Of a stretch of 64,000 nucleotides of DNA, positions 21,199 to 55,597 are shown one piece after another; within the stretch, counting starts at the first letter, position 1; each line of letters starts with the position of its first letter. The notes beneath the pieces were generated by a model. It searched no databases, was not told the DNA's origin, and was given only the letters and a program-made list of their open reading frames with translations. A program made the translations under genes and the position numbers. This stretch comes from Acidobacteriaceae bacterium (GTDB lineage Bacteria > Acidobacteriota > Terriglobia > Terriglobales > Acidobacteriaceae), in NCBI GenBank assembly GCA_025462735.1, contig JAOAPC010000018.1, positions 124,001 to 188,000 on the forward strand, written 5' to 3'.

Positions 21199-21213
21199 AG
21201 AAAAGCAGTGTAG

Positions 21214-21233
21214 GGCGGACGACCTTGTCCGCC
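21214..21233. repeat. GC-rich palindrome in the nuoH-nuoJ spacer
   Basis: GGCGGAC and GTCCGCC, 7-bp arms with a 6-base loop. The same core occurs inside the glycosyltransferase gene at 30363-30384. It fills the spot where nuoI is normally located. Confidence 0.6.
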
Positions 21234-29880: not shown

Positions 29881-29916
29881 CGCAGACGCTTGCGGCGCTG
29901 CCTACCTTCGTTGGAT

Positions 29917-30003
29917 GTCATTCCGAAGGCCTTCAGGCCTGAGGAATCTGCTGTTTCGCAGCATGAAAGCAGATTCCTCAGCGATGAATCGCCTCAGAAT
30001 GAC
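29917..30003. repeat. 87-bp nested palindrome between the lipoprotein and glycosyltransferase genes
   Basis: Outer ends GTCATTC and GAATGAC, and inner 12-bp arms GAGGAATCTGCT (29941-29952) and AGCAGATTCCTC (29968-29979), form an imperfect hairpin. It sits in the divergent promoter region. Confidence 0.6.
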
Positions 30004-30028
30004 ACTAGCTAAGGGACGTAAGAGGTTC

Positions 30029-31339
30029 ATGTCTCGAAAATCCAATCCCGTTACCTCCATCATTGTTCCGGCCCGGAACGAAGAAGCCTGCCTGAGCTCC
30101 TGCCTGGAGTCGCTGATAGCACAAACTGGAATCGACTTTGAAATCATCGTGGTTGACGACGCCTCGACGGACCGCACCGTTGAAATCGCGAGCTCTTTTG
30201 TGAGCCGGGAACTTATGACCGTTGAGGCGACCGGTAAGGGCACGACTTACAGTCGTGCCGAACATCATCGCAACATGATCAACGGCACGGCTGTAAGCCG
30301 TGCCCTTCCCGCACCAGAAGCCCCGCATGGCGAGGACGCCCGGAGCTCCACAGTCCACGTAGGGGCGGACGCCCTCGTCCGCCCTGATATTTACGTCATC
30401 TCCGCACCGCCGCTCCCAGGAAGTTGGACGGGCAAAAACAACGCCATGACCGCCGGCGCAAAAATTGCGAAAGGGAACTGGTTGTTGTTCACCGACGCCG
30501 ACACCGTCCACAAACCTGGATCTCTGGCGCGCGCCGTCGCCGAAGCCGAGCAGCACGGCGCCGCCCTGCTTTCGTATTCTCCCGAACAGGAGGTTCACGG
30601 CTTCTGGGAGAAAGCGGTTATGCCTGTGATCTTTGCCGAGCTGGCCAAAACCTATCCTCCCGCGAAGGTGAATGATCCGGCTTCTCCGATTGCCGCCGCG
30701 AATGGGCAATACTTGTTGATCTCGCGCGAAGCTTACGACGCAGTCGGCGGCCACACACAAATCGCAAGCAATCTTCTCGAAGACGTCGCCATGGCGCGGC
30801 TGGTGAAATCCTCTGGCCGTAAAATTTTCTTCCGCTACGGTGGCGATGCCGTCCGCACTCGCATGTACCGCAGCTTCGCGCAAATGAGAGAGGGCTGGAC
30901 GAAGAACCTGGCGCTGCTCTTTAAGGATCCGGTTCGGATGGCTGCGCACTATCTGATTGAATCTTTCGTATTACTCGGGGTTGTGAGCGGCGTAATTCAG
31001 ATCGCGCTTCTTGGCCCGCCAAATGTTCCCAGTCAAAGTGTGGTGCTTCCGCATTATCCGATTTCTGACAGATATTTTCCTCTGTTGAAGTGGTGGCTGG
31101 GAGGGGTGCTCTTCCTCTTTGTATATCTACTATCGCGATCTATTTGGAGGGTCATGAAGGCGCATTTTCCCCCTAGGTTATCGGTGACTTCGATGCTCGG
31201 GCCGCCGGTCTTTGCGTATTTGCTGCTGCGATCAAGGCACTTCTGTAAACGCGGCCTAGTCGATTGGAAAGAACGAGCTTATGTTTATTCCGCCGAAGAG
31301 ATTGAGGGACTGAAGAAACCACACGTTCGGGCAATTTGA
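30029..31339 (+). CDS. HpnB-like family 2 glycosyltransferase with in-frame repeat insertion
   Basis: Membrane-bound glycosyltransferase of 436 residues. ATG at 30029 with AGAGG just upstream; the frame is open further up but that part is the palindrome. The GT-A domain has SIIVPARNEE, IIVVDDASTDRT, WTGKNNAM, the DxD-like LLFTDADT and LLEDVAMARLVK. The C-terminal part has two or three membrane helices (about 325-350, 365-385). It resembles the hopanoid-associated HpnB group, but no hopanoid genes are nearby. Residues about 67-121 look like a translated palindromic-repeat insertion that replaces the short turn before YVISAPPLP. The frame is intact, so the protein is probably made. Confidence 0.82.
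   Translation: MSRKSNPVTSIIVPARNEEACLSSCLESLIAQTGIDFEIIVVDDASTDRTVEIASSFVSRELMTVEATGKGTTYSRAEHHRNMINGTAVSRALPAPEAPHGEDARSSTVHVGADALVRPDIYVISAPPLPGSWTGKNNAMTAGAKIAKGNWLLFTDADTVHKPGSLARAVAEAEQHGAALLSYSPEQEVHGFWEKAVMPVIFAELAKTYPPAKVNDPASPIAAANGQYLLISREAYDAVGGHTQIASNLLEDVAMARLVKSSGRKIFFRYGGDAVRTRMYRSFAQMREGWTKNLALLFKDPVRMAAHYLIESFVLLGVVSGVIQIALLGPPNVPSQSVVLPHYPISDRYFPLLKWWLGGVLFLFVYLLSRSIWRVMKAHFPPRLSVTSMLGPPVFAYLLLRSRHFCKRGLVDWKERAYVYSAEEIEGLKKPHVRAI
30239..30384. repeat. Cluster of palindromic repeats inserted in the glycosyltransferase gene
   Basis: Three clear hairpins lie in frame with the gene: 30239-30259 (9-bp arms GGCACGACT/AGTCGTGCC), 30284-30304 (GGCACGGCT/AGCCGTGCC) and 30363-30384 (GGGCGGACG/CGTCCGCCC). 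A weaker GGCGAGGACGCC is at about 30329. The first two are inverted copies of each other. The same hairpins are found in intergenic spaces of this window. Confidence 0.8.
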
Positions 31340-31344
31340 GACCC

Positions 31345-31755
31345 ATGCTCTATCTCACTCGCAAAGCTGAGTTCGCCGCCTCGCACTATTACCACAATCC
31401 GGAGCTGTCTCCTGAAGAGAACCGGCGCCTCTTCGGCAAATGCAATAACCCCAACGGGCACGGGCACAATTATGTGCTCGAAGTCACGGTAAAAGGTGAG
31501 ATTGACCCGCATTCCGGTTTTGTGGTTGACCTGAAGCAACTCAAGGAAACCATGCACCGCGAAGTGCTCGATGCGATGGACCACCGCTTCCTGAACAAAG
31601 AAGTCCCGGAATTTCGGACGCAGATTCCCACCACCGAGAACCTGGCCATCGCCATCTGGCGGCGCCTCGCGCCCAAGCTCACGAATGCCAAACTGCACCG
31701 CGTGCGCGTGTACGAGAATCATGATCTGTTCGTGGATTTTTATGGAGAGGAGTGA
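31345..31755 (+). CDS. 6-pyruvoyl-tetrahydropterin synthase-like protein (copy 1)
   Basis: Converts 7,8-dihydroneopterin triphosphate to 6-pyruvoyl-tetrahydropterin, or acts as the related QueD enzyme. ATG at 31345; a TTG at 31336 is also possible. Zinc-binding histidines are in FAASHYY and in NGHGHNY. KCNNPNGHGHNY supplies the catalytic Cys in the eukaryote-like spacing, MDHRFLN the Asp-His pair, and VYENHD the substrate-binding Glu. All catalytic residues are present. It overlaps the glycosyltransferase stop region closely and is separated from its paralogue by a 226-bp palindromic spacer. Confidence 0.87.
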   Translation: MLYLTRKAEFAASHYYHNPELSPEENRRLFGKCNNPNGHGHNYVLEVTVKGEIDPHSGFVVDLKQLKETMHREVLDAMDHRFLNKEVPEFRTQIPTTENLAIAIWRRLAPKLTNAKLHRVRVYENHDLFVDFYGEE

Positions 31756-31981: not shown

Positions 31982-32401
31982 ATGAAAGCCCACTTGTCCC
32001 GCCGCTACCGCTTTTCGGCCTCGCACCGGCTGCATAGCGAGCAGATGTCGGATGCCGAGAACCGCGCCATCTATGGCAAATGCAATAATCCGTACGGCCA
32101 CGGGCACAACTACGTGCTTGAAGTAACTGTAAGCGGGCAGGTCGATCCAAACGGCATGGTCTGTAACCTGGTGGATCTTGACGAATCCGTGAACCGCGAG
32201 GTCCTATCCCGCTTCGATATCGAAAACTTGAATATGCGACCAGAATTCGCAGACTCCGTACCCACAACAGAAAATCTCTGCACTGTTATCTTTGATCTTT
32301 TGAATCAGGATATTTTGAAGCGTAAGTTCACTCAGGCACATCTGGAAAGGGTGCGGCTGGAAGAAACAATGATGAATTCGTTTGAGTACAGCGGGGACTA
32401 G
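31982..32401 (+). CDS. 6-pyruvoyl-tetrahydropterin synthase-like protein (copy 2, variant active site)
   Basis: Paralogue of the preceding gene, 139 residues. The zinc His residues (FSASHRL, YGHGHNY), the Cys in [10 protein letters not shown] and the substrate Glu (LEETMM) are retained, but the catalytic Asp-His pair of copy 1 (MDHRFLN) is replaced by FDIENLN, so His is lost. It may have altered specificity or a structural or regulatory role in a hetero-oligomer. It precedes folE by 55 bp, in the same direction, which supports a pterin pathway. Confidence 0.83.
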
Positions 32402-32414
32402 CGCGGGTATTCTC

Positions 32415-32429
32415 ACGGCTGAAAGCCGT
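32415..32429. repeat. Small palindrome in the folE leader
   Basis: ACGGCT-GAA-AGCCGT, the core also present at 30284-30304 and 51058-51078. It sits in the 55-bp gap between PTPS copy 2 and folE. Confidence 0.5.
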
Positions 32430-47650: not shown

Positions 47651-47669
47651 CGGAATAAGAAGTGTGGAG

Positions 47670-47691
47670 GCACGGGCGTCCTCGCCCGTGC
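47670..47691. repeat. Palindrome GCACGGGCG/CGCCCGTGC
   Basis: Perfect 9-bp arms around TCCT, with TGGAGG in front. Nearly identical copies lie at 55527-55544 and 55576-55597. Confidence 0.7.
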
Positions 47692-51013: not shown

Positions 51014-51078
51014 GGCACGGCTTGAGCCGTGCCACTCGGGACAAACAACTCACCAACGGCACGGCTGAAAGCCGGGCC
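51014..51078. repeat. Pair of inverted GGCACGGCT hairpins upstream of phosphohexomutase
   Basis: Hairpin at 51014-51033 (GGCACGGCT...AGCCGTGCC) and a mirrored one at 51058-51078 with one mismatch, matching the pair inserted in the glycosyltransferase gene. Confidence 0.7.
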
Positions 51079-55441: not shown

Positions 55442-55526
55442 TGGCGGAGGGAACTGAAAACAGAGTAGCGCACGGCGGCCAGCGGATTAAGATTACGAAG
55501 GTGTACCCGCATTTTGATCGTGGAGG

Positions 55527-55597
55527 ACGGGCGTCCTCGCCCGTGCCAGATAACGAGCATCTCTTGACCATGGAGGCACGGGCGCCCTCGCCCGTGC
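55527..55597. repeat. Two copies of the ACGGGCG/CGCCCGT palindrome
   Basis: 55527-55544: ACGGGCG-TCCT-CGCCCGT. 55576-55597: GCACGGGCG-CCCT-CGCCCGTGC. Both are preceded by TGGAGG, as at 47670. Confidence 0.7.

Follow-up and report, generated by a model that had tools for sequence, protein, structure and literature searches.

Can a mobile hairpin repeat become part of a protein? A gene for a family-2 glycosyltransferase (GT), lying in a 64,000-nucleotide stretch of an Acidobacteriaceae genome (the window), raises this question. An earlier note, made from the sequence alone, had described about 55 of its codons (residues ~67–121) as palindromes inserted in frame. The insert is real and somewhat larger than first thought: compared with the congener G006, which is poor in such repeats, the net gain is 61 codons (residues ~59–120), whether counted between wider anchors (95 versus 34 codons) or narrower ones (77 versus 16 residues). 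The three palindromes originally picked out all have perfect stems of at least 8 bp, and a fourth, weak one proved to be a decayed inverted unit (Table 1). As the note had stated, the frame stays open through all of them over the full 436 codons, and the in-frame ORF reaches 5' to 29867.

Table 1. Position of the GT gene, its insert and the related REP units within the window
Feature	Position	Strand	Remarks
Family-2 glycosyltransferase gene, HpnB-like, host of the insert	30029..31339	+	436 codons, ATG at 30029 to stop ending at 31339
Inserted segment in GT, residues ~59–120	30203..30388	+	absent in congener G006 and in 20 of 24 homologues from other genera
A-type REP dimer, head to head, in GT insert	30232..30311	+	inverted repeat; reads GKGTTYSRAEHHRNMINGTAVSRALP
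A-type REP core, forward, GT insert	30239..30259	+	perfect stem of at least 8 bp
A-type REP core, inverted, GT insert	30284..30304	-	perfect stem of at least 8 bp
Decayed inverted REP unit related to GGAGGCACGGGCGTCCTCGCCCGTGC, GT insert	30329..30352	-	88% complementary to 47663–47686
B-type REP, GT insert	30359..30384	+	GTAG tag 30359–30362, paired stem 30363–30384 (at least 8 bp perfect); reads VGADALVRP
B-type REP with GTAG, core with two mismatches, between two genes	21210..21233	+	
Related REP unit	47665..47691	+	
Two A-type REP cores, one with two mismatches	51014..51078	+	
Two related REP units, same orientation	55520..55597	+	

The insert is flanked by the two Pfam matches of the protein, with Glycos_transf_2 matching best at residues 10–59 and Glyco_tranf_2_3 at residues 130–284. 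The label HpnB-like can stand as a description, but the score of 158 bits is far below the HpnB cut-off of 379. Relatives had been expected to carry only a short turn before the WTGKNN motif. This is borne out: from ...IASSF to the G of WTGKNN there are 15–16 residues in G006 and in 20 of 24 homologues from other genera, versus 77 here. The other four hold 20 (G020), 26 (G013), 31 (G036) and 32 (G028) residues of unrelated sequence instead of 16, so the length of this loop differs even where these REPs are absent. Among the peptides encoded by the insert are SSTVHVGADALVRPDIYVISAPPLPGSWTGK and ALPAPEAPHGEDAR. For the A pair the folding energy is -31.3 kcal/mol (z -9.2), a stability that none of 200 shuffles equalled, and the B-type stretch has a folding z of -3.3. 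The insert is a composite of REP units, and single insertion events therefore cannot be dated.

The same units are dispersed through the window and the genome. The A pattern is matched six times in the window, each palindrome giving a match on either strand, whereas shuffled sequences average 0.02. The further cores reported by the earlier note were recovered at 47670, 51014–51078 and 55527–55597 and, more weakly, at 21214, but position 32415 holds merely a partial arm. Across the 4.36-Mb genome the A core has 88 forward and 89 reverse matches, compared with 1 and 0 for a reversed control. When up to two mismatches are allowed, the B core gives 38 and 37 compared with 6 and 3 for the control, so that chance accounts for part of the two-mismatch matches. 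The GT A pair is matched over 71–86 bp at no fewer than seven other loci (for example C12:266287-266365 and C11:446924-447001), and it shares the architecture of the A dimers of ~80 bp seen at several loci. Tens to thousands of dispersed copies, often paired in opposite orientation, are the general marks of REPs. B units also carry the characteristic tag, with GTAG or GTGG (accepted as a variant) in the 6 nt before the core at 51 of 61 sites. For the A type, 82 of 87 sites could be oriented, and the 6-mers before the core are GGGAAG (35), TATCAG (22), TGAAAG (11) and others (14). The A type works like a REP but falls outside the GTAG REPs.

Twelve genes in the genome score above the cut-off for PF01797. 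Two of the twelve were tested, and both pass the model NF047646 for REP-associated tyrosine transposases (RAYTs), with 110.8 and 92.6 bits against a cut-off of 80. The RAYT gene at L037 is flanked by A-type REPs and that at L040 by B-type REPs, so that both REP families have the REPtron arrangement of a RAYT gene between REPs. From this association we infer that the REPs are mobilised by these RAYTs. REPs of the TATCA type neighbour the RAYTs at L033 and L036, and those of the GGGAA type neighbour L037. GGGAA, TATCA and TGAAA are the three main tag classes of the A type, and these neighbours suggest, at the sequence level, that there are tag-specific RAYT lineages.

The earlier note had proposed a genome-wide search for the hairpins and a count of those lying in genes. 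We examined 148 distinct core sites (87 A and 61 B, the latter also passing a palindrome filter) in the surroundings of the listed genome matches. A site was taken as intragenic where the ORF extended for at least 40 codons on each side with a positive codon score, of our own devising, on both. By this rule 40 of the 148 sites are in frame inside ORFs, 33 in number. A more cautious count of 38 units in 31 ORFs leaves out L134, a candidate ORF dropped for having no family match, and L166, set aside as its core may be a chance GC palindrome. The intragenic total is probably underestimated, since units of a third kind (GGAGGCACGGGC...) were left out of the count.

The ORFs that were kept encode mostly recognisable proteins. 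The NCBIfam cut-off is passed by 21 of the 31 (UvrC, CarB, MnmG, PheT, DnaG, IspE, ThrS, MnmE, RecG, dGTPase, ValS, PurL, TrmFO, LipB, LeuS, 4-hydroxybenzoyl-CoA reductase alpha, Tgt, a menaquinone/UbiD-family decarboxylase, ModC, PriA and MurC) and the Pfam cut-off by seven more (peptidase C26, RtcB, prolyl oligopeptidase, FG-GAP/ASPIC, PMT_2, hydantoinase and the GT of the window). An MsbA-like exporter (L121), LolC/E (L123) and GyrB (L126, its ORF cut by the end of the sequence stretch analysed) have strong NCBIfam matches below the curated cut-offs. Two of the counted ORFs are less certain: L165:672-2666, which barely clears the PMT_2 cut-off, and L135, where FG-GAP/ASPIC is matched on one side only. 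Many of the REP-bearing genes, such as valS, murC and pheT, are essential in model bacteria. Units lying wholly inside the ORF of a known protein, with the frame kept and no counterpart in shorter homologues, do occur in this genome, the homologues compared being those of the GT gene and 16 further genes. The intragenic share is higher for B than for A units (23/59 versus 15/87, p 0.004); a preference of the 21-nt A cores for genes was not significant (p 0.15). For the family-level relatives G010 and G013, 30 of the 83 A matches were sampled and two proved to be intragenic and in frame, which does not differ significantly from the 15/87 of the host genome G000 (p 0.23). The MnmG (L021) and DnaG (L110) ORFs hold further repeat-like peptides, NDERPTTND and NDQRPQTND, with VTCHLERSEAG in MnmG; these peptides suggest that further repeat families are also read in frame.

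Sixteen of the 33 ORFs, chosen by us, were compared among congeners, and for 12 of them there were data from the REP-poor G005 (forward/reverse matches 0/0 for the B core, 1/0 for the A core) or G006 (0/1 and 2/0). In these 12 genes, which had been selected for their insert, the loop of G000 is longer than that of G005 or G006 in 18 of 18 comparisons. A less biased measure comes from the other REP-bearing congeners (G001–G004 and G007), whose loops exceed the REP-poor mean in 36 of 44 cases. The eight that are not longer are CarB in G002, LipB in G003, UvrC in G001 and G003, DnaG in G003, IspE in G002 and G004, and MnmE in G003, the lengths for UvrC and DnaG being less reliable because the anchors lie far apart. 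Judged by eye, the ValS loop reads HVGTGALARP in G001, YVGAGAPTRP in G004 and HVGTGATARP in G003, and in the MurC loop the units are of the A type for G001, G002 and G003 and of the B type for G000 and G004. On such inspection, several loops appear to have been struck repeatedly by REPs within the genus. The MurC of G002 (L209) has a REP-like stretch seemingly split by a second repeat, TTCGACAAGCTCAGGGCAGG, with the frame still kept; this seems to be a nested insertion.

At the GT site itself the congeners form a graded series. Between the wider anchors there are 95 codons in G000, 88 in G001, 61 in G002, 59 in G004, 47 in G003 and 34 in G006; no orthologue of the GT came from searches of the two incomplete genomes, G005 and G007, where the best E values were 4.6e-19 and 4.4e-14. 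The sites in G002 and G004 have GTAG-like palindromes in the same frame (V/I-G-x...), with a z of -2.6 for the G004 stretch. Those in G001 and G003 fold weakly (z -0.97 and +0.21) and their frame is still open. G001 keeps one partly paired A hairpin (z -2.4), to which the A dimer appears to have collapsed. Across these genomes the GT palindromes thus decay with the frame kept. Homologues carrying the segment without repeat-like DNA, which the earlier note regarded as evidence against a repeat insertion, occur only as the decayed stretches of G001 and G003, which fit the insertion model, as do the still palindromic sites of G002 and G004.

We consider it highly probable that RAYT-mobilised REPs inserted in frame into the GT gene and some 30 others, are translated there as loops and subsequently decay. 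REPs would be non-autonomous hairpins mobilised by the REP-associated tyrosine transposases of the host. They would have entered the GT coding sequence in the ancestor of a subclade of the genus, with more units added later, and selection would retain only those insertions that leave the reading frame intact, introduce no stop and lie in a loop able to tolerate them. The inserts would be translated as flexible loops, and the palindrome would decay over time into ordinary coding sequence with the frame kept. The same process would have decorated about 30 other proteins in the genome and the corresponding loops in congeners. Insertion, repeat identity, frame preservation, recurrence, decay and the RAYT–REP association can each be read from the genomes compared. 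Translation of the inserts we infer from the same sequences, and most likely the cell makes these proteins with extra floppy loops of mobile-DNA origin.

An AlphaFold2 model of the GT, built with 19 sequences, has a mean pLDDT of 81. The flanking catalytic core reaches 81–98 in most of its ten-residue blocks, while insert residues 70–111 stay below 50; as modelled, the insert is a low-confidence loop on a well-folded core. The best solved matches found by Foldseek are glycosyltransferases such as WrtF, PcManGT and GtrB. The GT enzyme is not obviously essential, and its gene, like others of the set, might be on the way to becoming a pseudogene, with an open frame owed to luck or recency. We give this little credence: the protein is 48–64% identical to 18 relatives and retains many invariant columns of the alignment, four congeners share an insert, and genes that are essential in model bacteria, among them valS, murC and pheT, show the same pattern.

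Strong GC hairpins inside coding regions also invite the idea that the segments are removed at expression, by ribosome hopping or RNA processing, leaving proteins without them. Ribosomes hop over byp elements in yeast mitochondria, the Magnusiomyces precedent. Bypassing needs no multiples of three and no open or preferred frames, yet 38–40 units keep the frame, and among the other 108 REP-core sites no frame-breaking insertion was recognised. A strict detector, which recovers 35 of the 40 in-frame units and which decayed genes could escape, flags one of the 108, where the REP forms the C-terminus of a 4-hydroxybenzoyl-CoA reductase ORF. A looser one flags nine, this site included, and in all nine the gene end adjoins the REP. 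The two loosest settings flag 12 and 20 sites, most scoring near zero on one side, and inspection covered the nine only. Frame use is also uneven: two of the six frames take 17 of 23 B units (p 8e-5, or 0.017 if only four frames are open) and two take 8 of 9 of the 21-nt A units (p 1e-3), values weaker by up to ~15-fold since the preferred frames were chosen post hoc. A bias of this sort, towards certain frames and free of stops, is what one would predict for a translated segment but not for a skipped one. With the decayed, weakly folding inserts of G001 and G003 still in frame as well, removal at expression is very improbable.

Still less can be said for an ordinary fast-evolving loop with palindromes due to chance or codon usage. 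Some hairpins do arise from GC-rich coding sequence, the segments of G001 and G003 have weak palindromes, and four homologues from other genera have extra residues. However, the same units exist in tens of dispersed copies with few control matches, some of them intergenic and some beside RAYTs, and both REP-poor congeners have short loops; we regard this explanation as extremely improbable. An assembly or binning artefact of a metagenome-derived genome can be practically dismissed: the congeners are fragmented MAGs and assembly can collapse repeats, but the window lies on a 243-kb contig of an assembly that is 97% complete with 0.13% contamination, and REP-like peptides occur in the same loops of several separately assembled congeners.

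Insertion of RAYT-mobilised REPs, the reading we prefer, has published counterparts. In the available text of Di Nocera et al. (2013; PMC3733652), GTAG and CGTC REPs are described in frame inside ORFs of several species, DNA repair genes being given particular weight, and are linked to Rickettsia palindromic elements (RPEs). Intragenic units there are often dimers encoding 20–30 residues (43–82 in clusters), in uvrA, tRNA synthetases and other genes, most cases being in Opitutus terrae and Rickettsia conorii, and the GTAG REPs are RAYT-associated. The present case shares the in-frame position and the RAYT association of the GTAG type, and differs from the cases described there in that the genus is acidobacterial, many housekeeping genes are affected and insertions recur in the same loops of several species. 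The A-type tags GGGAA, TATCA and TGAAA fall outside both tag classes of that work, as far as its text describes them. For Koribacter and three further species, the same source reports acidobacterial tyrosine transposases with flanking terminal inverted repeats (TIRYTs). There too, tyrosine transposases are flanked by repeats that can form families, whereas the A units are short hairpins and the flanked gene passes the RAYT model, a comparison made by description only. The A type, lacking GTAG, may nonetheless belong to this TIRYT/TIR kind.

The earlier note had likened the insert to RPEs. The likeness holds for in-frame palindromic insertion, RPEs being described as palindromic repeats in genes without ORF disruption (PMC4316617, PMC3733652), and it is one of behaviour only; the element here is a RAYT-associated REP/BIME rather than an RPE. 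RPEs are given as ~100–150 nt long (PMC4316617), and RPE-4/6 are of the CGTC type without transposase association in the account of PMC3733652, unlike the RAYT-flanked REPs here. The REPIN/BIME–RAYT systems of Pseudomonas and E. coli, in the parts of PMC3116915, PMC2817692 and PMC8266576 available, are similar in their opposite-orientation REP pairs, the GTAG tag (for the B type) and RAYTs with matching flanking REPs. They are described there as mostly intergenic, and in the present A family GGGAA, TATCA or TGAAA replaces GTAG. Coding palindromes in the mitochondria of Nematomorpha are likewise inverted repeats inside protein-coding genes, but they are perfect repeats of up to 284 bp in animal mitochondria, according to the text available (PMC6649704). 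In-frame REPs outside Rickettsia were thus already published in 2013 (PMC3733652, as available) and the kind is known; ours is a densely populated case in a phylum for which we found no report of in-frame intragenic REPs in the literature searched, a partial coverage with preprints and most subscription journals outside it.

Scattered examples of intragenic REPs and of RPEs have long been on record. The genus studied here offers a natural series, from congeners poor in REPs through REP-bearing ones to those with decayed copies, along which the origin of protein segments from a mobile hairpin can be traced gene by gene. Since housekeeping enzymes and candidate transposases occur in one genome, the role of selfish DNA as a supplier of new protein segments becomes directly testable. 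A bolder proposal, which we hold to be doubtful, is that REPs and RAYTs are in this genus a standing source of new protein sequence, by repeated hits on the same permissive loops of essential enzymes, the inserts being later freed from mobile sequence and kept, some for a selected function and not just by tolerance.

Some minor features of these loci deserve record. Near the REP-bearing loop region of dnaG in G002 (L272, G002:C151:20532-21063), a TAA lies between two homologous stretches, which is either an assembly error or a real break. The GT homologues L061 (G036), L064 (G028), L048 (G013) and L062 (G020) have 4–16 extra residues at the insert loop, and the extras of two of them are alike (RVKECPVIGTN and RVGNCPVVGHN); another repeat may be read in this loop in the four genera. 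Immediately 5' of the GT start, a different, 37-nt inverted repeat at 29916–30004 has the look of a MITE-type element, its arms (TGTCATTCCG...GAATGACA) being 78% complementary and separated by 15 nt. Two neighbouring paralogues at 31336–31755 and 31982–32401, which we take to resemble 6-pyruvoyl-tetrahydropterin synthase/QueD, share a 106-nt block of 74% identity and are separated by a 46-nt inverted repeat (31762–31807/31929–31974).
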